Assembly: GCA_946480915.1 (NCBI GenBank)
Contig: CAMLLO010000060.1
Location: 1-17,792, forward strand
DNA length: 17,792 bases
Direction of reading: 5' to 3'
DNA from: an uncultured Sphingobacteriaceae bacterium
GTDB lineage: Bacteria; Bacteroidota; Bacteroidia; Sphingobacteriales; Sphingobacteriaceae
This document shows positions 2,846 through 17,792 of this stretch, piece after piece. Under the pieces are notes generated by a model. The model saw nothing but the letters and a program-made list of their open reading frames with translations. It was not told where the DNA came from and ran no database searches. Position 1 is the first letter of the stretch, and the number at the start of each line of letters is the position of its first letter. The position numbers and the translations under genes were made by a program.

Positions 2846-2921
2846 ATACTTTAGATATTTGATGTGATGAGTTTAGCCATAGTTATCGGCTGGCTGTTTT
2901 TAATTTACTAAAACTAACGAT

Positions 2922-3974
2922 ATGGCGAAGAAAGTTTATCAAGCTTATTTAAACCAAATTCGAAGCGCAATTAATGAGCCGAATTTACTAAGCAATAAAG
3001 TTGCGAATTTTACTTCTGAAAGTCGTAATTACGGCACTAAACTTTCACTTGAGGATGTGAACGATCTCTCTGCTGAAATGGGCTTGTCGTCTTTAAAGCG
3101 GTTACTTGGAAAAGATCATCCCATCTATGTTAGCTCAGGAGATCATCCAGATTTTGCTTATTTAAGAAATAGTCAAGATGTGAGAGAGAAGCACTATATA
3201 GTTTCAGTATTTATCGACATCAAAAACTCAACACATTTCTTTAGAAAGTACAATCACGATCAGATTGCTTTGATTATCCAGACTATACAGGGTGCCGCAA
3301 TTCACACATGTTCACTCTTTAATGGACATATTCAAAGACAACAATATGATGGGTTGTTCTTGTATTTTGGGGGTAAAAATAAGACCCGTGAACAAGCAAT
3401 CGATGATGCGCTTAAAGCCGTAAGCTTTTTTACATACTTTATGAAGTATGAACTTCCAGAAATCTTCGACGCCAACGAATTAGATACTGTTTATACTCGT
3501 GCTGGAATTGACTTTGGAGATGATGATGAAGTATCTTGGTATATTTTTGGAGTAAATGGATGTTCGGAACTTACAACTGTTAGCTTACACACTAGTCTTG
3601 CTCCCAAGATGCAGGCGTATGCTGGTCATAATGGAATTATGATCGGTCACAACTTAATCAAAAAGGTATCCACTATTCAAAAGTATTCCACAGTACGTTT
3701 TCATGAAAAGGAACCTGTTCCCCTCATTTTTGAACGACCCGACTATCGACAATATCAGTTTAATTGGCAAGAATTTTTAGTAGATAGTTATCCTTTTATT
3801 ACGTGGGATGGAAGTAATATCGAGATTAACTACGATTATAATCCTGAAACAAACTCGTTTTATCAAAAAGTCGAAATGCTCAAAGATAATAGAGCTGCAA
3901 TAACAACTAGTGGGATAATGGGGGATGTCGGTCACAGTATATCACCAACTAAGTTCTATGGCTATGATTTTTGA
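2922..3974 (+). CDS. Class III nucleotide cyclase, Pycsar cyclase (PycC-like)
   Basis: A 350-residue soluble protein with a single class III nucleotidyl cyclase domain at about residues 90-270. The first metal-binding Asp is in VSVFIDIKNSTHFF (D99), the second in QRQQYDGLFLYFGG (D143), and the typical R-x-G-I-D-F-G strand follows at 193-199, then ELTTVSLHTSLAPKMQAYA, which corresponds to the conserved G..VN.A..L region of adenylyl/guanylyl cyclases. There are no receptor, HAMP or transmembrane segments. Stand-alone cyclases of this type paired with a small membrane protein are the signature of Pycsar, in which infection triggers cCMP or cUMP synthesis. Which nucleotide is made cannot be read from the motifs with confidence. 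The ~80-residue C-terminal extension ends in SPTKFYGYDF and may be flexible. The next gene overlaps the 3' end. The gene is AT-rich compared with hrpB. Calling it a cyclase is safe; calling it Pycsar rests on the neighbours. Confidence 0.85.
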   Translation: MAKKVYQAYLNQIRSAINEPNLLSNKVANFTSESRNYGTKLSLEDVNDLSAEMGLSSLKRLLGKDHPIYVSSGDHPDFAYLRNSQDVREKHYIVSVFIDIKNSTHFFRKYNHDQIALIIQTIQGAAIHTCSLFNGHIQRQQYDGLFLYFGGKNKTREQAIDDALKAVSFFTYFMKYELPEIFDANELDTVYTRAGIDFGDDDEVSWYIFGVNGCSELTTVSLHTSLAPKMQAYAGHNGIMIGHNLIKKVSTIQKYSTVRFHEKEPVPLIFERPDYRQYQFNWQEFLVDSYPFITWDGSNIEINYDYNPETNSFYQKVEMLKDNRAAITTSGIMGDVGHSISPTKFYGYDF

Positions 3975-4440
3975 TCAAAAAAACAAGGAGCTAACTCGAG
4001 AAATAGATAGATTTATTCATGTGAACTCCATATCAGACTTAAATTTTATCAATGTGTCGAACTTCAAGGATAGGATAATCTTGAATTACGTTGTTAAAGA
4101 CGATGACTTGGAATTCGAATATAAATTTGAAGTAACAAGCTATCTAATAAATGATCGGGAAGAAATTCAATATCAAACACCAGTTTTGAAACTCCTTTCG
4201 CCCAGCGTGAAAGTGAATTTAGATATTCACATGTTAATGAACGGGATAATTTGTTTCACTTTCCCAGGGGATATTCGATATAACCAAGGATTAACCTGTG
4301 GGTATGCAGTTGAACAATCTTTTAAGTGGGCTTTTGGATATGAGTTTTATCTAAAAAAGCATTATTGGCCGTTCCCTGAGATGCCTCATGGGATATACCC
4401 AATACATTGGGGATTTAGTAGGCCACAAATGGCCGCATAA
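3958..4440 (+). CDS. E2-like (ubiquitin-conjugating-type) CBASS/Pycsar accessory protein
   Basis: A 160-residue protein whose C-terminal half resembles the bacterial E2-like enzymes of type II-short CBASS. It has H91, then NGIICFTFPGD with candidate catalytic Cys99 (residues 95-105), an aromatic helix segment around W124 with YEF at 128-130, W137, and PFPEMPHG ending in H144. This matches the family pattern as I remember it (h-G-x-(L/I)-C-L-x-x-P-x-D ... W-x-x-x-YE ... W ... E-x-x-H). In CBASS, E2-like enzymes covalently attach the CD-NTase C-terminus to other molecules and so prime signalling; here the partner would be the cyclase encoded just before it. The start at ATG 3958 overlaps the cyclase by 17 bases; ATG 3964 (11-base overlap) or ATG 3925 are alternatives. 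No E1-like or JAB deconjugase gene is present. The homology call is from motifs only. Confidence 0.7.
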   Translation: MAMIFDQKNKELTREIDRFIHVNSISDLNFINVSNFKDRIILNYVVKDDDLEFEYKFEVTSYLINDREEIQYQTPVLKLLSPSVKVNLDIHMLMNGIICFTFPGDIRYNQGLTCGYAVEQSFKWAFGYEFYLKKHYWPFPEMPHGIYPIHWGFSRPQMAA

Positions 4441-4451
4441 ATAATTTTAGT

Positions 4452-4949
4452 ATGGAAGAAATGGAAAAAAACAAGCGGCCTAGTATTCCACTTGGTTTTG
4501 GAAAGGACGTAAATGATTATTTGAACCATTATGTTACTGTAGCTGATGCAAAAGCTGCGGCGATTTTGGCATCAAATTTTATCGTCCTTGGCGGACTTTC
4601 AACTATGGAAGTCGATGCATGCAATTTTGCCCTCATTTTTTTGTTGTCAGGTGTTTTTTCGATATTTTCCATCTTCTACTCTTTAAAATCTCTGTATCCT
4701 CGCTTAACAAATGCAGGTAAAGGTCTGATATTTTGGGAAAGCATCAGAAGTCACAAATCGTTAGATAGTTACTTAGAAGAATTGGGGAAATTAGACAATG
4801 CGAAGAAAGAGATTGAATACGGAAAACAAAATTGGCACATCAGTAATGTTTTATCAGCAAAAAACAATAACGTGAGATTGTCATTATTGACATTCGGAGC
4901 CTCTTTGATTTTTCTTATCATTGAATATGTCTTAGTGAAGTTTTCCTAG
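4452..4949 (+). CDS. Pycsar membrane effector, PycTM-like (DUF5706-type)
   Basis: A 165-residue integral membrane protein with predicted helices at about residues 36-50, 57-78 and 143-163. The segment DYLNHYVTVADAKAAAILAS (22-41) matches the DUF5706 hallmark, an ADAKA motif leading into the first membrane helix. The cytoplasmic loop with GLIFWESIRSHKSLDSYLEE (91-110) and the IEYGKQNWHISNVLSAKNNN stretch (121-140) before the last helix also fit that family. Family members sense the cyclic nucleotide made by the partner cyclase and are thought to disrupt the inner membrane, causing abortive infection. The start is ATG 4452, with ATG 4461 as an alternative. The gene follows the E2-like gene by 11 bases and so is almost certainly in the same transcript. 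Confidence 0.82.
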   Translation: MEEMEKNKRPSIPLGFGKDVNDYLNHYVTVADAKAAAILASNFIVLGGLSTMEVDACNFALIFLLSGVFSIFSIFYSLKSLYPRLTNAGKGLIFWESIRSHKSLDSYLEELGKLDNAKKEIEYGKQNWHISNVLSAKNNNVRLSLLTFGASLIFLIIEYVLVKFS

Positions 4950-4994
4950 TAGTTGTCTTGGGAAAAGCCACTAACTATTACCATTTATCATCGG

Positions 4995-5813
4995 ATGGCC
5001 GAAAATTATTTAAAAACATACATTGAATCGTTATTTGCTGAAATTACATTCTTGAATGCAAATCTCAATGTGCTAGACACCTTTGTTGAAGAAAGGGGGA
5101 AGGAGCTACATCGTAATTTTCCTTTTACAGATTATCAGCTTTATTCCATGGGCTCTACCTACAGGGATTTGACTCAATTAGAAGGTGGCAATAATTTATA
5201 TCTCACTAATGTTCATTATCGGCTAGCTACTTCGAATCTAAACGGCGAAATAGAAAGGCTAAAAAGTTATACAAGTTGTCTCACAATAACTCACTCTTTT
5301 GAGGTATTTGAATCGTTCTTAAAAAACGTTTTATCAATATTAATTCAAAATAATCAGTCACTTGTGAGTGACTTGAAATTAGAATGTGAAGCAGATTTTG
5401 ATGCAATAAGACGCAACTTGTTTAGAATTCAGGGTGAAAGCAATAAAGGATTTATTAAGGTGCTACGAAAGATATCTCCTTTTTTTAAGGCACATGAACA
5501 AAACAACATATGGCAGCGGAATATGAGCCATTGGTTCGAAATAATTGCAAAAGTTAGAAATTTAGTGGTGCATTCCAGATTGATTCTGAACCAAGAATTC
5601 AAGGAGTATATCTTAGAGACACATAGGTTGAAGCTTTTCAGGTTGCACTTTACTATATCAGAAGAGAATGGGTTAACAAAGTTGGCCTTAACCCCATATC
5701 AAGCGAATGCGATAATTGATCACCTCTATGAATATGCTCATCTAATCTACAAATCTTTGTCCATCGATTTTGGACTGGACTTGGATAGTAATTTCAACCA
5801 TCTAGAACTTTAA
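4995..5813 (+). CDS. HEPN-motif protein, possible RNase effector of the Pycsar-like cluster
   Basis: A 272-residue, helix-rich soluble protein from ATG 4995. A TTG at 4953 would add 14 residues and leave only 3 bases after the membrane effector gene. The segment FEIIAKVRNLVVHSRLI (181-197) carries R188-N189-x3-H193, the R-N-x-x-x-H signature of HEPN ribonucleases. It is preceded by a helix typical of HEPN proteins (LTITHSFEVFESFLKNVLSIL, 96-116). HEPN domains with this motif are metal-independent RNases in many defence systems (toxins, CRISPR effectors, Abi proteins), though some are non-catalytic adaptors. It resembles the stand-alone HEPN proteins found near restriction and defence genes. 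It sits on the same strand and shares the AT-rich composition of the three genes before it, so it may be co-expressed. Its membership in the system is inferred from position only. Confidence 0.55.
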   Translation: MAENYLKTYIESLFAEITFLNANLNVLDTFVEERGKELHRNFPFTDYQLYSMGSTYRDLTQLEGGNNLYLTNVHYRLATSNLNGEIERLKSYTSCLTITHSFEVFESFLKNVLSILIQNNQSLVSDLKLECEADFDAIRRNLFRIQGESNKGFIKVLRKISPFFKAHEQNNIWQRNMSHWFEIIAKVRNLVVHSRLILNQEFKEYILETHRLKLFRLHFTISEENGLTKLALTPYQANAIIDHLYEYAHLIYKSLSIDFGLDLDSNFNHLEL

Positions 5814-5907: not shown

Positions 5908-5951
5908 TTTTATATAAACGATAATTCCTTATCTTGGATCTTTATCTACAG

Positions 5952-6137
5952 ATGAGTCGTAATTATAAATTCTACAACAAAGAAGGCCTATATTTCGTCA
6001 GCTTTGCCACCATTAACTGGATTGATGTTTTCGTCCGCGATGAATAATTTATTGCCTTAGTCGGCAGCCTGGCCTGGTGTCGTAAAGAAAAAGGGATGGA
6101 AATATACTCCTGGTGCATAATGCCGAGCCATGTACCC
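5952..6137 (+). pseudogene. Truncated RAYT (REP-associated transposase) remnant
   Basis: The first ~62 codons match the intact RAYT at 8833 almost residue for residue (MSRNYKFYNKEGLYFVSFAT..., then SWCIMPSHV). A nonsense change turns the Tyr32 codon TAC into TAA at 6045-6047. The match ends shortly after MPSHV, before the second His of the HxH motif, where a ~160-bp repeat element begins at 6141. The remainder of the gene is missing. It is a dead duplicate that was probably broken by the repeat insertion or by later recombination. Confidence 0.8.
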
Positions 6138-6368: not shown

Positions 6369-6917
6369 TTGTCATCCAAATACAAAATCTCCGATCACCA
6401 CGATGTTCATTTCATCAGCTTTGCCGTAGTCCAATGGGTAGATGCATTAAGCAGGCCAGCGTATAAAGATATTCTAATTGATTCTTTGAGATTCTGTCAG
6501 CAAAAGAAAGGTCTAAAGCTATATGCATACGTCATCATGAGCAACCACGTTCATCTCATTGCATCTGCCAAAGAAGGATTCAATTTATCCGACATTCTTC
6601 GAGATTTGAAACGACATACCAGCAAAGCACTACTAGAAGCAATTCAAAATAATCCAACAGAAAGTCGTCGTGAATGGATGTTGTGGATATTCAAATCAGC
6701 CGGCAGGGGCAATACTAATAATAAAGATTATCAATTCTGGCAGCAGGATAACCGCCCAATTCAACTAAGCAGTCCGGAAATGGTAGAGCAACGTTTAGAG
6801 TACATTCATCAGAATCCAGTTCAAGAGCAGCTTGTAGCTGAAGCACATTATTATATTTATAGCAGCGCTTTGGATTATTCAGGAGGGAAGGGGCTGTTGG
6901 AGATTGAGTTTCTCTAA
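6369..6917 (+). CDS. RAYT, REP-associated tyrosine transposase (IS200/Y1 superfamily)
   Basis: A 182-residue protein of the Y1_Tnp / RAYT type. Its HUH motif is H60-V-H62 in VIMSNHVHLIA. The family also conserves ESRREWMLW, YQFWQQDNRPIQL, the YIHQNPV segment and a C-terminal SSALDYSGGKGLLEIEFL. These single-copy-type transposases cut and process REP palindromes. I leave the catalytic Tyr open: TYTSK in the other intact copy is RHTSK here, whereas the Tyr of YIHxNPV is conserved. Translation must begin at TTG 6369, because the position that is ATG in the other two copies is TTG here. No in-frame stop interrupts it. It differs clearly from the copy at 8833, so the window holds two RAYT lineages, each with its own palindromes. 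Confidence 0.85.
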   Translation: MSSKYKISDHHDVHFISFAVVQWVDALSRPAYKDILIDSLRFCQQKKGLKLYAYVIMSNHVHLIASAKEGFNLSDILRDLKRHTSKALLEAIQNNPTESRREWMLWIFKSAGRGNTNNKDYQFWQQDNRPIQLSSPEMVEQRLEYIHQNPVQEQLVAEAHYYIYSSALDYSGGKGLLEIEFL

Positions 6918-6918
6918 G

Positions 6919-6933
6919 GAAGCTACAAGCTTC
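6919..6933. repeat. 3' hairpin of RAYT copy 2
   Basis: GAAGCTACAAGCTTC (6-bp perfect stem, 3-base loop) begins two bases after the RAYT stop codon. The identical hairpin is the right-half landmark of the ~160-bp elements. Confidence 0.7.
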
Positions 6934-6972
6934 TTATTATCTGCAGAATTGAACTGCTGTTTTTATAATGAC

Positions 6973-6993
6973 GTCGTAGCGAGACGCTACGAC
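6973..6993. repeat. Strong hairpin, 9-bp stem
   Basis: GTCGTAGCG and CGCTACGAC form a perfect 9-bp stem with a 3-base loop. No T-run follows, so it is more likely a REP-type palindrome than a terminator. A degenerate relative (TAGCGATACGACCAGTCA) lies near 12755, and both are followed by CCAGTCA. Confidence 0.6.
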
Positions 6994-7054
6994 CAGTCAC
7001 GAAGTATATTTTTAAAAGACTAATTTGAAAGACTGTTTGCTAAACTCTTATTAA

Positions 7055-8632
7055 ATGAAATACATAGTAGTACTCATTTGTATAATTCTATCGGCATTTG
7101 GCGGACAGGCCGGGCAGCAGCCCGCAGTCTATTCCGGCAGTATCAAAGGGTATACTGCAACCGCAGGATTTAAAACAGGCAAGGTGTTTGTAAATAACGT
7201 TACAACGGGCCGACAGGAAATGTATCTGATCGACATTTCTCCTTCTGGAAAATTTTCTGTAGAAATTCCCTTAAAGTATAATAACGAAGTCTGGATAAGT
7301 TTCCCCTTTTTTCAGGGCACTGTTTATTTAGAACCCGGAAAAGAACTCGTACATGATTTCGATATTTCTATACCGGCTAAGGTGTCGTCGGTATTCCGGA
7401 ACGATGGCGGGGTAGTTAACAACGATTTTAATAAGGTTAGGGCGATAACCCAATATAACTGGAACAAAGTTTACGCTGATATTTATGGACTAACGCCCGA
7501 GGAATACAAAGCCTATTTTTTGGCTATACAAGCCGAAAAACTGGCTGCTGTTGAAAACCTGTCAAAAACAGAGAGATTAAGTAAAAAAGCAGTTCAGCTA
7601 GCCACCGCCGATATAAAATACGACATTGCCATTGAACTGATGAATTTCAATTCTAAAAGAGAATCGGCATATAGAATAAAAAATAAAGTCGGTTTTAAAA
7701 ATAGGGTACCGGTAATAAGCGAGGTAAGACTTGATACAGGTTATTTTGATTTTTTGAAAACCTTTAAGTATAACGATTCATTCGGTATGCAATCTTTTAA
7801 GTACTACATTTTTATAAACAGATTAAAATTTCTCGATCTGATTTATAATATGGCTGAGCCGATCGATTATACTGAACAGATTAATCATTTAAAGCAGCTC
7901 GATACTACCGACGCGAGTATAATGGCCATTATAACAGATCTAAGAAAATCAATGAAAAACAAGGCTAGAGAAGTTGGGGCGCTTGAAGGTGCCAGGCCTA
8001 TTGTATTGAAAAGCTTGTTAAAAACAGATATTACTCTCGAGCTTGAACTGATGGAGTTGCAGGATTTGTGCCAAGGGATTTATCAAGAAAAGATTCCGTT
8101 ATCAAATGCTACCCTGGATAGTTTAAAGCGGAGGTTCCGATACACTTCATTTTTTATGTCACTAATCGACCTCAATAACAAGGTTAGAAAGGAGATTGAA
8201 ACTAGTGAACATCAAGACGGTTACGCAGCTAACAAGATGCCGGCTATAAGCACCGACAGCATTTTTGATAACATCATTAGCAAATACAAAGGCAAGACTA
8301 TTTTTATCGATTTTTGGGCAACTTGGTGTGGCCCCTGTCTTCAGGGAATTCAGGAAATAGAACCGATAAAAACTGCCCTCGTGGATAAAAATGTGGTGTT
8401 TATGTATATAACAAATGATACCTCGCCTGAGACAGCTTACCGAACTCTGATACCGAAAATTAAAGGGGAACATTACCGGGTAACAGCCGACGAGTATAAT
8501 TTATTATCAATACGATTTAAGATATATGGTATCCCTCATTACGCTATTGTAAACCCGGAAGGTATAGTGGTTAACAAGGATTTTCACTGGGTGAATACAG
8601 AGGATGTGAAAAAAGCGTTGTTGACTAATTAA
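7055..8632 (+). CDS. Exported TlpA/thioredoxin-like protein
   Basis: A 525-residue protein with an N-terminal signal peptide (MKYIVVLICIILSAFGGQAG) and a C-terminal thioredoxin-fold domain from about residue 400. The fold carries W424-C425-G426-P427-C428 in FIDFWATWCGPC and the downstream cis-Pro segment YGIPHYAIVNPEG. The N-terminal ~390 residues are mixed: a beta-rich part (~25-115, with a pattern like the DUF4369 domain that often precedes TlpA domains in Bacteroidota), then a mostly helical part. The protein is probably a periplasmic thiol-disulfide reductase of the TlpA/ResA class; the substrate is unknown. It stands alone between two RAYT loci, with no cytochrome c or Dsb genes nearby. 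Confidence 0.85.
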   Translation: MKYIVVLICIILSAFGGQAGQQPAVYSGSIKGYTATAGFKTGKVFVNNVTTGRQEMYLIDISPSGKFSVEIPLKYNNEVWISFPFFQGTVYLEPGKELVHDFDISIPAKVSSVFRNDGGVVNNDFNKVRAITQYNWNKVYADIYGLTPEEYKAYFLAIQAEKLAAVENLSKTERLSKKAVQLATADIKYDIAIELMNFNSKRESAYRIKNKVGFKNRVPVISEVRLDTGYFDFLKTFKYNDSFGMQSFKYYIFINRLKFLDLIYNMAEPIDYTEQINHLKQLDTTDASIMAIITDLRKSMKNKAREVGALEGARPIVLKSLLKTDITLELELMELQDLCQGIYQEKIPLSNATLDSLKRRFRYTSFFMSLIDLNNKVRKEIETSEHQDGYAANKMPAISTDSIFDNIISKYKGKTIFIDFWATWCGPCLQGIQEIEPIKTALVDKNVVFMYITNDTSPETAYRTLIPKIKGEHYRVTADEYNLLSIRFKIYGIPHYAIVNPEGIVVNKDFHWVNTEDVKKALLTN

Positions 8633-8652
8633 TCAGTCGCGTAAACCCCTCA

Positions 8653-8738
8653 CTGGCTTAAGTTTCAGGCGCTGCCTTAAGCTCGGGTAAATAAGCTTTG
8701 CCAATAAAAGGATTTTGTAAATCCGTCTATTATGTCCC
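8653..8738. repeat. ~160-bp element, copy B (left half)
   Basis: It starts CTGGCTTAAG and runs through TAAGCTTTGCCAATAAAAGG, the hairpin GGATTTTGTAAATCC and TATTATGTC. It then switches directly into the REP of the next RAYT instead of continuing to its own right half. Confidence 0.75.
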
Positions 8739-8789
8739 CTGCTACCGCGAGCATAAGTCGCTTGCTGGTTCGAGCTTGCAGCTCGGACC
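8739..8789. repeat. REP-like palindrome upstream of RAYT copy 3
   Basis: GCTACCGCGAGCATAAG plus a 23-base hairpin at 8767-8789 (arms GGTTCGAGC / GCTCGGACC). An inverted counterpart lies directly after the gene at 9382-9447, so the RAYT is bracketed by oppositely oriented REPs. Confidence 0.75.
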
Positions 8790-8832
8790 TTTTATATAAA
8801 CGATAATTCCTTATCTTGGATCCCATCTACCG

Positions 8833-9378
8833 ATGAGTCGTAACTATAAATTTTACAACAAAGAAGGGCTATACTTTGTCAGCTTTGCTACCATTAACTG
8901 GATCGATGTTTTCGTCCGCGATGAATACTTTATGGCATTAGTCGGCAGCTTGGCTTGGTGTCGCAACGAAAAAGGAATGGAAATATATTCGTGGTGCATC
9001 ATGCCAAGTCACGTACATTTGGTGTTCAGAGCAAAAGATGCTAATCCTGGCGAATTGCTAAAAAGTTTCAAAACATATACTTCAAAAGCTTTGCAAAAAA
9101 TGATTGAAGAACATCCTCAGGAAAGCAGGAGAGAATGGATTTTATGGATGATGGCTCGGGCAGGATTAAAGAACAGTAATGTGAAGAATATGCAGTTTTG
9201 GCAACAGCACAATAAGCCTATCGAGTTATGGAGCCCGGAAGTAATCGATCAAAAAGTCGATTATATTCATAACAATCCCGTTGTAGCGGGTTTTGTAACA
9301 GAAGCTCATTATTGGAAATACAGCAGCGCCATAGATTATTCAGGCGGTAAAGGGATCCTGGAAATTGACTTTGTGTAA
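8833..9378 (+). CDS. RAYT, REP-associated tyrosine transposase (intact)
   Basis: A 181-residue Y1_Tnp-type protein with the HUH motif H60-V-H62 in CIMPSHVHLVF. It then has ESRREWILWMMARAG, MQFWQQHNKPIELW, YIHNNPVVAGFV and a C-terminal SSAIDYSGGKGILEIDFV. The start ATG at 8833 is conserved in the dead copy at 5952. The gene is bracketed by inverted REP palindromes, the usual RAYT layout, so it is probably a functional REP-mobilising or REP-maintaining enzyme. It is the likely source of the pseudogene at 5952. Confidence 0.9.
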   Translation: MSRNYKFYNKEGLYFVSFATINWIDVFVRDEYFMALVGSLAWCRNEKGMEIYSWCIMPSHVHLVFRAKDANPGELLKSFKTYTSKALQKMIEEHPQESRREWILWMMARAGLKNSNVKNMQFWQQHNKPIELWSPEVIDQKVDYIHNNPVVAGFVTEAHYWKYSSAIDYSGGKGILEIDFV

Positions 9379-9381
9379 TAA

Positions 9382-9447
9382 GGTCCGAGCTGCAAGCTCG
9401 AACCAGCCAACGCCACCAGATTCGTGCATTATGCTCGCAATAGCAGG
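9382..9447. repeat. Inverted REP downstream of RAYT copy 3
   Basis: Arms GGTCCGAGC and GCTCGAACC (9382-9404) are the reverse complement of the upstream hairpin, and ATGCTCGCAATAGCAG further on is the near reverse complement of the upstream CTACCGCGAGCAT segment. It begins four bases after the stop codon. Confidence 0.75.
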
Positions 9448-9574
9448 GTAAATAAGCCTTGCCAATAAAAGGATTTTGTAAATCCGTCTACTATGCCTCT
9501 AGAAGCTACAAGCTTCTTTCTATAATAGGCATTAAGCCAGGCTTCCCCACAGTCTTCGCGTAAGCTTAAGCCAG
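9446..9574. repeat. ~160-bp element, copy C (left end missing)
   Basis: It begins at GGTAAATAAGCCTTGCC, so the CTGGCTTAAG end is missing. It then has hairpins GGATTTTGTAAATCC and GAAGCTACAAGCTTC and ends CTTAAGCCAG. The junction with the RAYT REP lies at 9446. Confidence 0.75.
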
Positions 9575-9641
9575 AAAGGGGGTAGCAGGGGCCTGTCTCT
9601 TTTCCGCACCAAAAGCCTTTAACTATAAGATGGTGATATTT

Positions 9642-10061
9642 TTACTTCCAGATCTTCCACGTAAAAACCAAATATAAAATGGCAACACCGGTCCACAACA
9701 GGAACGCTTCAAAATGAGTTTCAGGGAAGCCTCGGGATTGGGATATATATGCACCGGTGAGCAAGATCAATAAAATGGCAAAACCAAAAGTCAGTATTAA
9801 CTTCCTGGCCTTATTTAATGGTTGATGGGCAGTAACAGTTTGTCTTTCTGAGATGGTCAATTCCTGCTCAATACTTATTGGTGCAAATTCCAGTTGATTT
9901 GCTAACACATCTAATGAATATTGCCGTGGCATTACTTCGCCCTTTTCAATACGCTGCACCGACCGCAAACTTAGTTGGGTCATATCTGCCACCTGTTGCT
10001 GGGTATATCCTTTTTTAATACGGCTTTGCTTTATTAAGTGGCCAATTTGCTGGGTATTCAA
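9642..10061 (-). CDS. XRE-family transcriptional regulator with membrane anchor
   Basis: 139 residues. Residues 6-60 form a Cro/C1-type helix-turn-helix (IKQSRIKKGYTQQQVADMTQLSLRSVQRIEKGEVMPR), and the C-terminal part has two hydrophobic helices at about 88-107 and 118-137. A membrane-anchored XRE protein is a common arrangement in Bacteroidota. Translation appears to start at TTG (complement of 10059-10061): there is no in-frame ATG upstream, and the HTH begins within a few residues. It diverges from the CPBP protease gene across a short gap holding two tandem 10-bp repeats, so it probably regulates itself and that gene. Confidence 0.85.
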   Translation of the reverse strand: MNTQQIGHLIKQSRIKKGYTQQQVADMTQLSLRSVQRIEKGEVMPRQYSLDVLANQLEFAPISIEQELTISERQTVTAHQPLNKARKLILTFGFAILLILLTGAYISQSRGFPETHFEAFLLWTGVAILYLVFTWKIWK

Positions 10062-10080
10062 CTTATCTAAAGTATGTCAA

Positions 10081-10100
10081 TTACGTCATTTTACGTCATT
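10081..10100. promoter_or_regulatory. Tandem 10-bp operator-like repeat
   Basis: TTACGTCATT occurs twice in direct tandem in the gap between the divergent XRE and CPBP genes. The 10-bp period is about one helical turn, so two regulator molecules would bind on the same face. It is probably the binding site of the adjacent XRE protein; this is inferred from position. Confidence 0.5.
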
Positions 10101-10158
10101 GCTAAAAGGCGTAAATGTTACAACGCTAAATATAATACTTTTATCAAAACTTACTCAA

Positions 10159-10857
10159 ATGGCTGGCTTAGTAGTAGAACTTATAATATCATGGTTATTG
10201 CTCAAATTTGTTCTTAATAAAAACCTTTTGGTGCTTGGGTTTAAAATCAATAGCAAACAACTTACACCAATAATAATAGCTTTATTTATACCGGTGGCTT
10301 TCCTGGTTGTTCATTTGGTGGGTATATCATTGTGGGTAAAAAGCCCCTATCATTTAAACCCGCATTATACTTTCGCTGCATTTACAAACTCGACGCGGTA
10401 CGTATTAATATCGGTCGTTTATGAGGAATTGATATTCCGCGGAGCGCTATTATATATATTAATCAAAAAAATAGGTACTCAAAAAGCAGTGCTGGTATCT
10501 GCAATAAGTTTTGGTTTCTATCATTGGTTTACAATGGGTGTATTAGGCCAGGTAGTGCCTATGCTGTTTGTTTTTACTATTACTGCTATCATGGGATATA
10601 TATTTGCATTGTCCTTTAGCATAAGTAAAACCATCTATTTTCCATTCGCTTTACATTTGGGTTATAATTTTACTTTTATGATCATATTTTCCCGAAGTAA
10701 CATTGGCGAGCAATTATTGATCCCGATGTTTAAAAATGACCCGATTAAAACAGGGGTTGCATTTCAAACAGTTACTACGGCAATACATTATATCGTTTTT
10801 CCATTTATTATATGGTTGTATTTGCGTTATATGAAAAAGCGCATAGTCAGCGTATGA
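10159..10857 (+). CDS. CPBP-family intramembrane metalloprotease (CAAX/Abi type)
   Basis: A 232-residue polytopic membrane protein with about six hydrophobic helices. The CPBP motifs are E89-E90-x3-R94 in VVYEELIFRG (motif 1), FGFYHW with H122 (motif 2), and HLGYNF with H166 and N170 (motif 3). Family members are membrane-embedded glutamate-type metalloproteases; bacterial ones are linked to bacteriocin self-immunity and processing, and the Abi name is historical. I chose ATG 10159; a TTG at 10099 would add 20 residues but overlap the operator-like repeat. The divergent XRE gene is the likely regulator. Substrate unknown. Confidence 0.82.
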   Translation: MAGLVVELIISWLLLKFVLNKNLLVLGFKINSKQLTPIIIALFIPVAFLVVHLVGISLWVKSPYHLNPHYTFAAFTNSTRYVLISVVYEELIFRGALLYILIKKIGTQKAVLVSAISFGFYHWFTMGVLGQVVPMLFVFTITAIMGYIFALSFSISKTIYFPFALHLGYNFTFMIIFSRSNIGEQLLIPMFKNDPIKTGVAFQTVTTAIHYIVFPFIIWLYLRYMKKRIVSV

Positions 10858-10980
10858 TGAACATTCCCAAAAAACTGCTAACTATGATCAGCGGCTTCGG
10901 TTTAAATTTAAGAATCAAGTTCTTAATTCGCGATGACATAAACCTTGGCCACTGCCTGGCGAATGAAGGCAACTGCCTCA

Positions 10981-11159
10981 CTGGCTTATTTTGTTTTTCC
11001 TGACTTAAGTTTCAGGCGTTGCCATAAGCTTGGGTAAATAAGCTTTGCCTATAAAAGGATTTTCCAAATCCGTCTAGTATGTCGCCAGAAGCTGAAAGCT
11101 TCTTTTTATAATAGGCATTAAGCCAGGCTTTGCACAGTCTTCGCATAAGCCTAAGCCAG
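10981..11159. repeat. ~160-bp element, copy D
   Basis: It starts CTGGCTTA, has an extra ~20 bases (TTTTGTTTTTCCTGA) before CTTAAGTTTCAGG, and then the family landmarks. The first hairpin is decayed (GGATTTTCCAAATCC). The second hairpin carries a base change (GAAGCTGAAAGCTTC) that keeps the stem. It ends CTAAGCCAG. Confidence 0.75.
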
Positions 11160-11233
11160 AAAGGGACATCTTAGTGCAGTGGCTCACGTGACAATCTACA
11201 CTATACTGAACCGGGCACGCTATACGAATCATA

Positions 11234-11253
11234 TAATCTTAAACTTAAGATTA
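11234..11253. repeat. Perfect AT-rich palindrome
   Basis: TAATCTTAA and TTAAGATTA, 9-bp perfect arms separated by AC. It lies just before the 11-bp tandem repeat in a stretch with no gene. It could be a protein-binding site or part of a decayed element. Confidence 0.5.
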
Positions 11254-11302
11254 AATAATGCTAAAGATTATATTAGTTACTGTTAAAGTATCTCTTATAA
11301 GA

Positions 11303-11357
11303 GGTACCTTATAGGTACTGAAAGGGTACTTATAAGGTACTTAAATAGTACTTTAAC
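11303..11357. repeat. 11-bp tandem repeat, about five units
   Basis: Units with constant 11-base period: GGTACCTTATA, GGTACTGAAAG, GGTACTTATAA, GGTACTTAAAT and AGTACTTTAAC. The GTAC core is invariant while the A/T tail varies. The period is close to one helical turn. It could be an array of binding sites or a minisatellite; no gene is placed to use it. Confidence 0.6.
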
Positions 11358-11381
11358 CCCTTACTCGGTTGAGTCCAACCA

Positions 11382-11520
11382 CTGGTTTGAGGTTCAGGTA
11401 ATGCACAGAGCAGAGGTAAATAAGCTTTGGCAATAAAAGGATTTTGTAATATCCGACTATTATGTCTCCAGAAGCTACAAGCTTCTTTTTATAATAGGAT
11501 TAAGCTAGGCCTTTTCACAG
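11382..11520. repeat. ~160-bp element, copy E (right end missing)
   Basis: A degenerate left end (CTGGTTTGAGGTTCAGG), then TAAGCTTTGGCAATAAAAGG, TATTATGTC, GAAGCTACAAGCTTC and TTAAGCTAGGC up to TTCACAG. At 11521 the sequence switches to the IS3 transposase remnant, so the final CTTAAGCCAG is missing. Confidence 0.7.
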
Positions 11521-11712
11521 CGGTATAGAACAGACCAAAGAGCAAAACACCGAGCTGTAAAACTTTACAACGAGGACAGGCCACACTTTAGCATTGGTCT
11601 GCTTACACCTGAACTGGTTCATTCAAAGAATCTGATAGCAGAGAAATTATGGAAAACTATTATCAAAGAAAGTACAATTGTAAACCCATTGCAGACAATA
11701 AACAGCCTGTAA
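11521..11712 (+). pseudogene. IS3-family transposase OrfB remnant (C-terminus only)
   Basis: An open frame of ~63 codons ending at TAA 11710-11712 reads ...HRAVKLYNEDRPHFSIGLLTPELVHSKN... The YNxxRPHxSLGxxTP signature is the C-terminal end of the DDE integrase domain of IS3-type OrfB. There is no start codon and no catalytic D, D or E region. The upstream boundary coincides with copy E of the ~160-bp repeat, so the rest was deleted or replaced. Confidence 0.75.
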
Positions 11713-11737
11713 ATGTATAGCAGGATTATTATAAAAA

Positions 11738-11764
11738 CTGTAAACTTATTTTAGGACGATACAG
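11738..11764. repeat. Probable right end of the decayed IS3 element
   Basis: CTGTAAACTTATTTTAGGAC and then GATACAG, 25 bases after the transposase stop. The position and the TGT-A-AC-TATTT-AGGAC pattern resemble terminal inverted repeats of Bacteroidota IS3 elements. The matching left end is not in the window. Confidence 0.45.
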
Positions 11765-11786
11765 GTAATTAAGTATTTCCGGCCAC

Positions 11787-11921
11787 CACCCCCTTTAATT
11801 CCCCCGCCGGACGAGGGACACTAAGCGCTTTAGCAAAACGCCTTAAAATGACTGAACGCCAAATGCGACGTTATGCAGGCTAGGCATCCAGTGTCCCCCC
11901 CTGGCGGGGGTAGGGGGGGTG
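11787..11921. repeat. Large imperfect inverted repeat, C/G-rich arms
   Basis: Arm 1 (11787-11822; CACCCCC, CCCCCGCCGG, GAGGGACACT) and arm 2 (11890-11921; AGTGTCCCCC, GGCGGGGG, GGGGGGTG) are imperfect reverse complements of ~33 bases around a ~67-base spacer. It is a typical dispersed hairpin element, without coding capacity. Confidence 0.6.
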
Positions 11922-12054
11922 CGTATTTCTGTGAGAACCTTATAAAAACGATAAACAACTCAAATCGTCCTCGTTTGTACGAGGAGGTAGCGAGGTCTGC
12001 GAATTCTTCGCTCAATTTTGTAACCTGCTAAAAACTTGTAACTTGCCTTACTAA

Positions 12055-12264
12055 ATGCTTATCGCCATACTTTCCAAAGACCGAGTTTTAAGAGAAGTAA
12101 TTCCAAGCCTTCTTTTTTATCTCGCGTTTGCTCTATCCGTTTATTTGTTTGATAAAGCTGTACCTAGTGGGCCATGTACACCGGGAGGAATAGTTTTTCT
12201 TTTCATTCTTCCCTTTATTAGTGCAGCTCTTTTGTTGAAAGGAATTTATCAGAGAAACGGTTGA
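12055..12264 (+). CDS. Small two-helix membrane protein, unknown function
   Basis: A 69-residue hydrophobic protein with predicted membrane helices at about residues 15-35 and 45-62, joined by a Pro/Gly-rich loop (KAVPSGPCTPGG), and a basic tail (KGIYQRNG). I do not recognise the family. It is convergent with the CDGSH gene. Amino-acid composition and a clean ATG make it plausibly real, but conservation cannot be judged from this window. Confidence 0.45.
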   Translation: MLIAILSKDRVLREVIPSLLFYLAFALSVYLFDKAVPSGPCTPGGIVFLFILPFISAALLLKGIYQRNG

Positions 12265-12298
12265 GGATTCTTATACATGACTTGGTTAGGAGGGGTTA

Positions 12299-12523
12299 TT
12301 AGACTTTCTTTGGTGGCAAGTCGAATGCAACTGCTTCGTGGTCAAAATGACCGTTGTGTGATCCATCACAAAACGGCTTGTTCTTAGAAAGTCCGCAGCG
12401 GCAGATAGATACCACCGTTCGACCTTGCAAGCCATAGGAGTTGCCTTCCCTGTCAACAATCTCAAAATCGCCTTCAATTTTTACCGAGCCGTTATTATTT
12501 ATTGTAAGTTTTGTAGTTGCCAT
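12299..12523 (-). CDS. CDGSH iron-sulfur domain protein
   Basis: 74 residues. The motif CRCGLSKNKPFCDGSH (about residues 42-57) supplies three Cys and one His, the C-x-C-x(S/T)x3-P-x-C-D-G-(S/T)-H signature that binds a [2Fe-2S] cluster. The domain is preceded by a short beta-rich N-terminus (TTKLTINNNGSVKIEGDFEI). Small bacterial CDGSH proteins are thought to act in redox or iron-sulfur chemistry; no specific role can be given. The start at ATG 12523 is preferred to ATG 12556, because a promoter-like motif lies at 12538-12545, inside the longer frame. Confidence 0.92.
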   Translation of the reverse strand: MATTKLTINNNGSVKIEGDFEIVDREGNSYGLQGRTVVSICRCGLSKNKPFCDGSHNGHFDHEAVAFDLPPKKV

Positions 12524-12537
12524 TTTTCTATTTTGTG

Positions 12538-12545
12538 CAAAAGTA
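12538..12545 (-). promoter_or_regulatory. -7 promoter element for CDGSH gene
   Basis: On the minus strand this reads TACTTTTG, an exact TAnnTTTG match, 14 bases upstream of the CDGSH ATG. It supports the shorter start and a short 5' leader. Confidence 0.5.
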
Positions 12546-12589
12546 TAATAATGCATTAAGTAAAACGATTAAATTCACATAAGCTCTTA

Positions 12590-12746
12590 CTGGCTTAAGT
12601 TTCAGGTGCTGCTTTCAGTTTGGGTAAATAAGCTTTGCCAATAAAAGGATTTTGTAAATCCGGATACTATGTCTCTAGAAGCTACAAGCTTTCTGTAATA
12701 GGCATTAAGCTAGGCCTTTCACAGTCTCTGTCTAAGCTTAAGCCAG
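12590..12746. repeat. ~160-bp element, copy F (full length)
   Basis: CTGGCTTAAG to CTTAAGCCAG, 157 bases, with hairpin GGATTTTGTAAATCC and a shortened second hairpin (GAAGCTACAAGCTTT). The central junction reads ATGTCTCTAGAAGCTAC, which resembles the RAYT copy 2 start fused to its stop region. After it, 12747-12884 holds a decayed hairpin relative (TAGCGATACGACCAGTCA) and the promoter region of the lipoprotein gene. Confidence 0.8.
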
Positions 12747-12884
12747 AGCAGGGTAGCGATACGACCAGTCAGGAGATGGTGTTGACTGATTTAACAAGAT
12801 TTTTAGCGGAAATCAGGAAATAAGCTGCAAATTGGAAATGGAATAATTTATTGTATATACTCGATGAGTGCAATTGTCTGAAAA

Positions 12885-13574
12885 ATGAAAAGACTGTGTT
12901 TCTTCTTAATGTTTTCGATCCTAGCTGCTTGTAAACCAGACAAAAAGATTTGTGAGTTCATGTCAGAGAACGAAGAACTGTTGATTTACAACAATATCTT
13001 AACAGACCTGATTGAGAATAGGATGCATGGCAGATACCTCGGGGCTAAAGAAGAAGAGATCAGAGAAAAATACTATTATAATAATATACAGAATCCCGAC
13101 ACAGCAAGAATGGATATTGAGTTCATTAAGGCTCACAACTCCATCTTCGGTAGACCTTCGAAATTCTGTACAATATATCTTGATACAGTCACGCGAAGAA
13201 AATTCTTTTACGACAGAGTGAGGTTTGAGCAAGACATTAAATTTAAAACATTACTTAGCCAATATACCAACAATCCTCGTGCCGCCGTGGATAGTTTGAA
13301 CGGACTGCAACAGAGATATTCACCTAATGATTTTGGATTATGTACTGCAAGGATTGAGAAATTAGAAAATTCGAAAAATGATTCAGCAGCATGCACTTTT
13401 GGGCGACTAAGACTTTCAAAAATTGTATTAAACGATAAGAAAGATAAGGGAATAATGTTCTATGATTGGCATTGCGGTACTATGGGTCTATGTGGACATA
13501 GTGGAATAATTGAATTTATCAAAGGGACTAAAAGATGGGTAATTAAAGACTTTCAATATTGGAGTGTTTACTAG
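12885..13574 (+). CDS. Lipoprotein of unknown function
   Basis: 229 residues with a lipoprotein signal peptide: MKRLCFFLMFSILAAC, lipobox LAAC, lipidated C16. The mature part is charged and helical at first (residues ~30-130), then has a Cys-containing C-terminal region ending HCGTMGLCGHSGIIEFIKG...WVIKDFQYWSVY, which looks beta-rich. That tail resembles the end of many Bacteroidota lipoproteins that carry a small sensor-like or NTF2-like domain, but I cannot name a family. It is a single gene between repeat elements. Confidence 0.75.
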   Translation: MKRLCFFLMFSILAACKPDKKICEFMSENEELLIYNNILTDLIENRMHGRYLGAKEEEIREKYYYNNIQNPDTARMDIEFIKAHNSIFGRPSKFCTIYLDTVTRRKFFYDRVRFEQDIKFKTLLSQYTNNPRAAVDSLNGLQQRYSPNDFGLCTARIEKLENSKNDSAACTFGRLRLSKIVLNDKKDKGIMFYDWHCGTMGLCGHSGIIEFIKGTKRWVIKDFQYWSVY

Positions 13575-13796
13575 TATCCTCACAGACTGTAATCCTCACT
13601 GCCTTAAGTTTGTTGGTTCCGGTTTAACTGTAGAGTGCTGCTTGAGCGTTGTGGGTCTCTAAGGTAGCAAACTGCTATCTATTGAGTTCACGTCCGGCTA
13701 ATGCTACTTCTTTTCTTTATGGCAACCTTATAAAAATAGTAATCTTAAGAAAATCATCATTAAAACGATTATCTCCATCATATCTGCCTCTGGTTC

Positions 13797-13816
13797 CCTT
13801 CTCCTCGAGGAGAAGG
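13797..13816. repeat. Perfect 20-bp palindrome, dispersed hairpin family
   Basis: CCTTCTCCTC followed by its exact reverse complement GAGGAGAAGG, then CTTAGGGATGAGGTGA. The same element, in reverse orientation, ends the window at 17741-17792. It is a dispersed intergenic hairpin that may also act as a terminator. Confidence 0.6.
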
Positions 13817-13855
13817 CTTAGGGATGAGGTGATGCGATAACAAATCCATCCCTCA

Positions 13856-13904
13856 CTGGCCTAAGTTTCAGGCGCTGCCTTCCGCTGAGGTAAATAAGCT
13901 TTGG
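13856..13904. repeat. ~160-bp element, copy G (left 49 bases)
   Basis: CTGGCCTAAGTTTCAGGCGC through TAAATAAGCTTTGG, then the match ends. It is the left end of the family only, preceded by the same CCCTCA seen at copy B. Confidence 0.7.
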
Positions 13905-13908
13905 TTGA

Positions 13909-13961
13909 GATAGCAATCTAAAAAACTGGCATTGATAGTTCATTTAGACATATTTGCTATC
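13909..13961. repeat. 8-bp inverted repeat replacing the element's right part
   Basis: GATAGCAA (13909-13916) and TTGCTATC (13954-13961), 37 bases apart. It starts at the point where copy G loses similarity and could be a separate small element inserted there. Confidence 0.35.
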
Positions 13962-14152
13962 ACCTTGGTCAAATGTAACAGTCGTTCTAAGTACGCCGCT
14001 CTACTTTTGAAGCTTATTAATATTTAAGCGGTAAACCCAGTTGAATTTGATGAAAGAAAGAACCTTTTCTTGCACATATTTCAATGCCTCCCGAACGGAT
14101 TCTTAAACGTCGAATTATCGGCTGGTTAGACTGTGCTTTATTTTAATCACAC

Positions 14153-16684: not shown

Positions 16685-16744
16685 ACAGATTTCTGAGCCG
16701 ACCGTAGGACAATATGCTTTAGCAAAGCTCTGCGGTAGACAAAG

Positions 16745-16770
16745 AATACTAATTACAGAAATACTAATTA
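16745..16770. repeat. Direct repeat before esterase start
   Basis: AATACTAATTA occurs at 16745-16755 and 16760-16770, a 15-bp period, 17 bases before the esterase ATG. It may be a regulator site or simply AT-rich promoter sequence. Confidence 0.3.
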
Positions 16771-16786
16771 ATATACTATAAGCCAT

Positions 16787-17740
16787 ATGACTCAAAAATC
16801 ACTAAATTTTGCTAAAAAGTCCGCTCTGGCCATCTTGATGGCACTTTCTATATCTGCCATGGCACAGGACGGCACTATCTATCCACTAAATGCGCCTGCA
16901 GAGCCTAATGCAATTCCACTCGGCACCGGAGGTGTCGATAATCAGCCGGCACAAGAAACCTGGTTCCGCCAGTGGGGTGATCCAATGGCAAGAAATATCA
17001 CCAAAGCAACTTTAACTCCTTTTCTGCCGAAAGCCGGCAAGGCAAATGGCACCGCGGTGATTGTAGCACCTGGCGGAGGTTACAGATGGTTATCATTAGA
17101 TAATGAGGGTTGGGAAGTTGCAAAGGCACTTGCGGATAAAGGAGTCGCCGCTTTTGTGCTTAAATACAGGTTGCAACCTACTCCCGTATCGCTTGAAGAT
17201 TTTAAGCAATCGATGAATGCTCCGAGGCCTGCGGCTCTTGCCAACGCCAATACTACGCCTGGTTCAACACCAGCCAGACCGGCACAACCTGATCTCTCTA
17301 ATCAACTGGAGGACGCAGAGGCCGCATACGCCATGATTGTTAAGCGTGCAAAAGAGTGGGGCGTCGATACCGCCAGAATCGGGATGATTGGATTCTCGGC
17401 CGGGGCTGGCCTAACCATGCACTCAACACTTAATTCTAAAACCATGAAACTGGCTTTCATTGGTCCAATCTACGGAGGTATGGGCCCGGTGCAGGTGCCA
17501 AAAAATGCTCCGCCTATGTTCAACGTAATTGCTTCGGATGATTTCCTTTTCCGCGGACAGTTTGGCGTGATCGACTCCTGGTACAAAGCCGGTATCCCAG
17601 TAGAGTTTCATCTTTACCAGAACGGCGGCCACGGCTTTGGACTAGGCAATCCAGACCGAACAAGTAACCGTTGGTTTGATGCCTTTATGCATTGGCTGGA
17701 GGTTAATCGCTTCCTAACGGCCAAATCTGCAATTAATTAG
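16787..17740 (+). CDS. Exported alpha/beta-hydrolase, carbohydrate esterase-like
   Basis: 317 residues. Signal peptide at about 1-26 (SALAILMALSISAMAQ). The alpha/beta-hydrolase fold has a Gly-rich oxyanion segment (AVIVAPGGGYRWLS), nucleophile elbow G-F-S-A-G with S204, acid D251 or D252 in IASDDFLF, and H282 in NGGHGFGLG. This order matches the acetylxylan-esterase/BD-FAE-like group often found with polysaccharide degradation genes in Bacteroidota. A Pro/Ala/Thr-rich insert (~145-170: APRPAALANANTTPGSTPAR) interrupts the fold before the nucleophile, as is usual in this group. It probably removes acyl groups from plant polysaccharide, supporting the GH9 enzyme. Confidence 0.85.
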   Translation: MTQKSLNFAKKSALAILMALSISAMAQDGTIYPLNAPAEPNAIPLGTGGVDNQPAQETWFRQWGDPMARNITKATLTPFLPKAGKANGTAVIVAPGGGYRWLSLDNEGWEVAKALADKGVAAFVLKYRLQPTPVSLEDFKQSMNAPRPAALANANTTPGSTPARPAQPDLSNQLEDAEAAYAMIVKRAKEWGVDTARIGMIGFSAGAGLTMHSTLNSKTMKLAFIGPIYGGMGPVQVPKNAPPMFNVIASDDFLFRGQFGVIDSWYKAGIPVEFHLYQNGGHGFGLGNPDRTSNRWFDAFMHWLEVNRFLTAKSAIN

Positions 17741-17769
17741 AAATTGTAGGCTGTCACCTCACCCTTAAT

Positions 17770-17789
17770 CCCTCTCCTCAAGGAGAGGG
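17770..17789. terminator. Hairpin after the GH9/esterase pair, terminator-like
   Basis: CCCTCTCCT and AGGAGAGGG form a perfect 9-bp stem with a CA loop. No T-run is visible before the window ends, so terminator function is uncertain. The same hairpin family, including its CACCTCACCCTTAATC flank, occurs in reverse at 13797. Confidence 0.4.
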
Positions 17790-17792
17790 TGT

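Follow-up and report, generated by a model that had tools for sequence, protein, structure and literature searches.

An E2-like gene at the end of the cyclase gene in a Pycsar operon, with a putative role at the cyclase tail

The window considered here comprises the 17,792 nucleotides (nt) at positions 1–17,792 of contig CAMLLO010000060.1 of an uncultured Sphingobacteriaceae bacterium (GCA_946480915.1), and it carries on its + strand a four-gene operon (2922–5813) of the pyrimidine cyclase system for antiphage resistance (Pycsar), in which the cyclase gene pycC is followed by an E2-like (ubiquitin-conjugating enzyme-like) gene, by pycTM and by a gene for a protein of 286 amino acids (aa). Our reading, to which we assign a probability of about 0.55, is that the E2-like protein is a short enzyme resembling those of type II-short cyclic oligonucleotide-based antiphage signaling systems (CBASS), which, probably without an E1, would act upon the C-terminal tail of PycC and gate the synthesis of cyclic cytidine monophosphate (cCMP).

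The E2-like protein and its family

The E2-like gene (3958–4440, + strand) is an open reading frame (ORF) extending from an ATG at 3958 to a stop codon ending at 4440, and it codes for 160 aa. An in-frame upstream ATG at 3925 offers a 171 aa alternative; a start at 3958 (or 3964) is favoured because the 18 proteins of the family span 148–161 aa. The residues upon which a first-pass annotation had based its proposal of an E2-like enzyme inside a Pycsar cluster are present (NGIICFTFPGD with C99, W124, YEF at 128–130, W137 and PEMPHG), and the PADLOC profile for CBASS E2s was matched by the window protein (8.5e-8) and by 15/15 aligned members of the family at E ≤ 1 (best member 1.9e-10). The family is rare (18 clusters), has a conserved core, and its members are 53–68% identical to the window protein. 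C99, W124, E129, W137 and H144 are invariant in all 18 aligned members including the window, so that the conservation of C99, on which the first-pass proposal depended, is borne out. This putative catalytic Cys (codon TGT, 4252–4254) stands in the column of Cys101 in the E2 of Serratia marcescens (8hsb chain B; E value of 8.2e-4 with a profile including two CBASS E2s), which we take to be the catalytic Cys of that enzyme, and the same Cys is invariant in a 16-row alignment of short E2s. A second Cys, C114, is likewise invariant in 18/18 members of the window family and is not conserved in CBASS E2s, and the last residue, A160 (RP--AA), is nearly invariant (at least 90%). No Pfam match was found for the window E2; among the 18 family proteins, 12 carry a pre-assignment to PF26395.1, the Pfam family called E2-CBASS, and the window protein is not one of them. 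By its sequence the protein is a clear but remote relative of the CBASS type II-short E2s.

A scan of genome contigs with the single E2 sequence gave no confirmed relative. Viral contigs gave no matches to the E2, CBASS E2s or PycC, plasmids none to the window E2 and phages none to a CBASS E2. A weak match of the window E2 alone to a telomerase protein in the Protein Data Bank (PDB; 0.0027) was dismissed as spurious.

Linkage of the E2-like gene to PycC

The window PycC (2922–3974, + strand; 350 aa) is a single-domain ("clade E") pyrimidine cyclase that matches PADLOC PDLC00767 at 3.2e-99 and, at 8.2e-67, EaPycC (8jsf), a clade E cytidylate cyclase of solved structure. Its residues D99 and D143 align with the catalytic D102 and D146 of EaPycC, and F97, R139 and Q141 align with F100, R142 and Q144, which confer cCMP specificity and, in the available passages of the report on EaPycC, are required for cCMP synthesis (PMC11224242). 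Judged by these aligned residues, the window PycC is predicted to be a cCMP-type cyclase. The overlap of the E2-like gene with a class III cyclase gene that the first-pass annotation had noted amounts to 17 nt. After a gap of 11 nt there follows pycTM (4452–4949, + strand), whose 165 aa product is a membrane effector matching Pfam PF18967 (3.4e-7; 31.1 bits against a cut-off of 27.2) and PADLOC PycTM (3.3e-24). No CD-NTase was found beside the window E2; its neighbour is PycC, and the locus is therefore not CBASS but, as its predicted cyclase and effector indicate, Pycsar.

The association extends to other members of the family. Indirect evidence is that in 9/18 E2 clusters the longest source contig equals in size that of a PycC cluster among the 11 closest (P0019–P0029, at least 65% identity). 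Of the 493 PycC found, a further 109 were listed; one of these, P0109, was also size-matched (2782), and was taken as a coincidence, being from another source. A second locus read directly, that of Mucilaginibacter kameinonensis (L002), has the order PycTM, PycC, E2 with a PycC/E2 overlap of 20 nt, the effector being upstream here and downstream in the window. Mucilaginibacter corticis retains 35 residues from the C-terminus of the E2 (L001, 6001–6105; 83% identical) as a remnant, and the stretch holds only a weak and different cyclase (0.002); a system has probably been lost here. Among the 399 sampled family-level genomes the E2 was found only in these two; five further matches were weak, and two of these were CBASS E2s.

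E2-like genes and the AGS-C domain at PycC loci

For a broader survey, loci were collected by PycC only, from family-level (15/399 genomes matched, 14 strong), genus-level (15/149, 9 strong) and phylum-level genomes (45/395, 8 strong) and from three of 31 plasmid records with a PycC match. Weak cyclase matches (L024, 1/15 at the family level; 37/45 at the phylum level; 6/15 at the genus level; and 3/4 besides), duplicate retrievals of a locus and L071, with its interrupted cyclase, were left out of the counts. With repeats removed and the window added, the survey comprised 28 PycC loci.

All 20 single-domain PycC loci (328–357 aa) have an E2-like gene at the end of pycC, starting from 82 nt before to 3 nt after that end when ORFs are read from their first start, and this holds for 18/18 when the two starting loci (window and L002) are set aside. 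Three of these genes code for the short CBASS-type form (window, L002, L034) and 17 for a second form of 214–249 aa, in which a UBC-like core is followed by a SEC-C motif. In the core of the latter, as in WHISPEGICCLD, the H, G and C of H-x4-G-x2-C are invariant in 10/10 aligned sequences, and the H-x7-C spacing matches that of H91 and C99 in the window E2. Each of the five SEC-C E2s scanned, of the 17, matched PADLOC PDLC00833 ("E1-E2"; 2e-75 to 3.9e-89) together with several "E2" profiles, and all five show the Pfam SEC-C domain. In one of them SEC-C lies just below the cut-off, and this protein has further sub-threshold matches to UEV and UQ_con. The presence of an E2-like component in Pycsar, as proposed in the first-pass annotation, is thus upheld, but it is not an oddity of this one cluster.

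In contrast, neither E2 form was found at the eight longer PycC loci (418–467 aa) in the stretches examined, which covered about 1.5 kilobases (kb) on each side, less at contig ends, and 4 kb for plasmid records. The AGS-C domain (PF18134) is present in all eight of these longer cyclases (L021–L023, L037–L039, L063, L064) and absent from the three single-domain PycC scanned for it (L018, L034, window). AGS-C and E2 are therefore mutually exclusive in the loci examined. Fisher's exact test of E2 presence against PycC type gives 3e-7, a value that is too small because several of the loci are kin, and a third kind of E2 could have been missed because only two E2 profiles were used.

The SEC-C form follows single-domain PycC in the Bacteroidota loci L011–L020, L032, L033, L035, L062 and L083–L085, and in the one annotated record (L062) it is named only as a SEC-C domain protein. 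An alignment of SEC-C E2s gave 32 matches in viral contigs, mostly over the SEC-C stretch, which were not used. In six of the SEC-C Pycsar loci (L012, L014, L016, L018–L020) a 75-aa DUF2188-like protein is encoded upstream of PycTM, its identity having been tested (Pfam, PADLOC PDC-S16) for L018; by annotation, a DUF2188-like gene also precedes the CBASS type II-short operons L074, L075, L132 and L135.

The C-terminal tails of the cyclases

The window PycC ends in SPTKFYGYDF (residues 341–350, with Gly347; codons 3942–3971, + strand). Within its family the mean column identity is 0.84 over the core (61–300), falls to 0.65 over 301–334, and is 0.74 over 335–348 and 0.86 over 340–346; KFYG is found in 10/11 tails and KFYA in one. 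An AlphaFold2 model of PycC (predicted local distance difference test, pLDDT, 87; predicted template modelling score, pTM, 0.82; last ten residues pLDDT 71) is coil beyond a helix at 313–321, with three two-residue bridges.

The tail of the window cyclase (TKFYG-YDF) resembles that of a Nostoc CBASS cyclase (TKFHG-IDQG). The first set of CBASS tails examined comprised 15 CD-NTases encoded before a short E2, two genomic (L025, L026) and 13 plasmid-borne, the plasmid records matching the L025 E2 having been fetched for 22 of 31 (five near-identical Cereibacter, three Agrobacterium and one Burkholderia record were left). Counting also a held-out test set of eight, an E2 frame lies at the cyclase end by profile in 23/23 CBASS loci, and the 10 cyclases scanned of these 23, unannotated ones included, are all CD-NTases by PADLOC. 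An aromatic-aromatic-Gly motif occurs in the last 12 residues of 11/15 cyclases of the first set (e.g., SFYGE, LFYGD, TKFHGIDQG, TFFGD), the pattern having been defined after inspection of these rows and of the window, and in 1.15% of random 12-mers from ORFs of the same loci, some of which are surely not genes. Among 449 distinct ORFs, 15 end with the motif: one xseA and 14 cyclases that are encoded next to an E2-like gene. Such a tail beside a short E2 is a strong tendency rather than a law.

A second tail type is shared more closely. CD-NTase and class III cyclase folds are non-homologous. The CBASS cyclase of L025 is a CD-NTase by its matches to PADLOC Cyclase (4.9e-111) and to the solved cGAS-like 9woo (1.1e-57), and its C-terminus, GVKNQEHRFHFNE, has ten near-terminal residues, GVKNQEHRFH, in common with P0089, P0114 and P0117; in these three, which were found by PycC similarity, this stretch is followed by only two or three more residues. 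L034 is the one PycC of this RFH kind that was seen with its neighbours. It ends in HEKHRFHYGK, and its gene overlaps that of a short E2 (PADLOC E2 3.6e-40) whose identity is 48% with the L025 CBASS E2 and 26% with the window E2. In a tree of E2s the L034 protein falls together with two CBASS E2s (96/97), while the window family forms a separate group (100/100). The tree and its bootstraps need two changes of system; the approximately unbiased (AU) test does not reject a single Pycsar clade (p 0.229), and the Pycsar short E2s may thus share one origin.

A third tail type, for the most part [SN]KPY, characterises the PycC beside SEC-C E2s. A rough classification of the 120 PycC listed, of 493, gives 12 aromatic-aromatic-Gly, 60 RFY/RFH-like, 24 KPY-like and 24 other tails; among these others, many are extended versions of RFY/RFH-like tails. 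Most relatives of the window PycC carry some tail, which rules out a tail unique to E2-linked PycC, and a rule that the cyclase ends in Gly/Ala, as in CBASS with Cap2 and Cap3, is ruled out by the varying last residues of the window family. It is the type of tail, rather than its presence, that on these comparisons appears to go with the type of E2. In P0030–P0034, which outside the window family are its closest PycC group, the tail is of an SKP kind and 4/5 end in a bare Gly.

Proposed role of the E2-like protein and alternatives

In the mechanism that we favour, the tail of the single-domain PycC would be bound by the E2, whose Cys99 would attack at this tail, most likely after Gly347, giving a cyclase–E2 intermediate. 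The cyclase would then be handed to a lysine, of another cyclase or of a partner, and this transfer would prime or gate cCMP synthesis; the membrane effector PycTM would be opened by the cCMP, bringing the infected cell to a stop. In other PycC the AGS-C sensor domain would take the C-terminus instead. For the Serratia E2, Yan et al. in 2024 reportedly described processing of the cyclase C-terminus, its linkage to cysteine and chain formation. In E1-E2 type II CBASS, as far as the available parts of the reports go, the C-terminal Gly/Ala of the cyclase is joined to targets, which raises signal production (PMC10097602), or the cyclase is held on PspA (PMC11153139). The ubiquitin-like priming that the first-pass annotation suggested, or cyclase conjugation generally, is made more likely by the shared tails.

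Several observations weigh against this proposal. The window E2 is only 16–27% identical to CBASS E2s and its family's own profile found no E2 in the PDB. Its predicted structure appears to have the UBC-like fold that the first-pass annotation anticipated, at modest confidence (pLDDT 67, pTM 0.62), and a Foldseek search with it gave no match at E ≤ 0.001, seven CorA chains outranking the Serratia E2. In the window family the residues after the Gly vary, and in one member the Gly is itself replaced by Ala. Four of the 15 first-set CBASS cyclases (Spirosoma, Cereibacter, L025, L026) are without the aromatic-aromatic-Gly motif. In the held-out test it was present in 4/8 loci, all near kin of earlier rows (in one the cyclase is shortened by an insertion), and in 0/4 of the others, which end in FWGN, SFAGGPR, EWFLD and HFHPGFRDK; these rows rule out a universal rule. 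P0089, P0114 and P0117 were seen as protein sequences. According to the available part of Jenson et al. (PMC10097602), the last residue is not conserved in CBASS of other architectures. Lastly, a ThiF gene (L072) and a JAB-type gene (L071) lie within 2.5 kb at two plasmid CBASS loci, and E1-independence is therefore not certain.

Other explanations of the gene have to be weighed against these same observations. The protein could be a non-catalytic partner, like UEV or RWD domains, that holds the PycC tail so that the cyclase is kept off or brought to its trigger. UEV and RWD domains are indeed among the structural matches of the window model, the sequences are far from canonical E2s, and binding alone would suffice for tail sharing, but binding-only E2-like partners usually lose the Cys, whereas here it is invariant in the 18 members and the 16-row alignment, and the SEC-C form keeps its H-x4-G-x2-C; we consider this explanation unlikely. 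Slightly less probable still is a genuine E2 with another cargo or target, which would draw upon a host E1 or ThiF protein and modify the effector, phage or host proteins, or have its own C-terminal Ala joined. The near invariance of A160, though no gene overlaps the 3' end of the E2-like gene in the window, speaks for this, as does the joining of cyclases that end in Gly or Ala by E1-E2 CBASS (available part of PMC10097602). However, no E1 domain, ubiquitin-like or JAB isopeptidase gene was recognised in the Pfam scan of 13 window proteins, or noticed in the ORF list of L002, which was read by eye; gene order ties the E2 to PycC, the effector being on different sides in the two loci, and tail sharing points at the cyclase.

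That the gene is a functionless passenger of a decaying defence island we regard as improbable. The remnant in M. corticis, the deviant base composition of the operon (see below) and the rarity of the family would accord with decay, but the frame is open, its core is conserved across members that are 53–68% identical to the window protein, the overlap with pycC is comparable in L002, and two other E2-like lineages occupy the same position.

Should PycC be gated by the E2 via the cyclase tail, ubiquitin-like control would be untied from cGAS-like enzymes and could be regarded as a general addition to defences that signal by nucleotides. Comparable jobs would then be predicted for AGS-C and the E2, and the shared tails would provide a direct handle for testing control across CBASS and Pycsar. 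The passages on EaPycC give no account of how PycC senses infection (PMC11224242). A wider proposal, which we advance tentatively and at slightly less than even odds, is that E2 and cyclase tail form a portable control cassette, common to the CD-NTases of CBASS and to class III PycC, which replaces AGS-C, has moved more than once, and works free of E1 by cutting and joining the cyclase C-terminus; on this view an E2 would control most single-domain PycC of the Bacteroidota, and it would come in no fewer than two forms, the short one and the one with a SEC-C tip.

Other features of the window

The fourth gene of the operon (4953–5813, + strand), separated by 3 nt from pycTM, codes for the 286-aa protein, which on account of its motif RNLVVH (Rx4H) is a putative HEPN-like protein; Pfam gave only a weak match to Imm71, below the cut-off. 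No match to it was found in the related L002 locus, and it is therefore probably accessory. The G+C content (GC) of the operon (35.4%) differs from that of its flanks, 41.4% over 6900–17792 and 58.7% in the helicase gene at 114–2600, and the operon therefore looks acquired. This HrpB helicase gene itself adjoins DNA of 35–41% GC. Three Y1 (IS200-like) transposase genes lie near the operon (5950–6135, 6369–6917 and 8833–9378; one broken, two open), of which 6369–6914 was scanned against Pfam, and a similar gene lies beside the L002 operon (2911–3456).

Comparison with known systems

Type II CBASS with Cap2 (E1-E2) and Cap3 shares with our proposal the idea of joining the cyclase C-terminus, but it has an E1 and an isopeptidase, which were not found at the window locus, and a fixed last residue, Gly/Ala. 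Closer to the window is type II-short CBASS, as in the CdnG-E2 system of S. marcescens (8hsb, 8yjy, 9kkb), where a short E2 likewise directly follows the cyclase (23/23 CBASS loci), with its Cys in the same column and a UBC-like fold to which that of the window model may correspond, and where the cyclase tail is often aromatic-aromatic-Gly-x. Unlike the window locus, its cyclase is a CD-NTase, unrelated to PycC, its effectors are mostly phospholipase/patatin or SAVED/HNH proteins, and its E2 has the low identity to the window E2 noted above. The type is defined by short E2-like proteins and may include further families (available part of PMC8568899).

Pycsar systems with a clade E PycC and PycTM resemble the window in both components, its PycC being close to EaPycC, but as described in the available part of PMC11224242 they consist of cyclase and effector only, to which the window adds an E2-like gene. 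In the open-access literature searched, seen in part, no description of an E2-like or ubiquitin-conjugating component in Pycsar was found, nor, among the papers listed, any mention of SEC-C; a review that covers both Pycsar and ubiquitin-conjugating enzymes deals with the two apart. The statement in the first-pass annotation that no such subtype was known to it agrees with this literature, which includes neither the paper that founded Pycsar (Tal et al., 2021) nor that of Yan et al. (2024). The SEC-C E2 and its PycTM have very high PADLOC scores under CBASS headings, which suggests that such genes are already in the PADLOC training sets, and the association may therefore sit in some table. The SEC-C Pycsar loci (e.g., L018 and the Chryseobacterium plasmid NZ_MN657149.1, whose E2 is annotated only as "SEC-C metal-binding domain-containing protein") have PycTM upstream of PycC and differ from the window in their longer E2 with its C-terminal SEC-C, in their KPY tail and, often, in a DUF2188-like gene; like the window, they have an E2-like gene that touches the end of a single-domain PycC.
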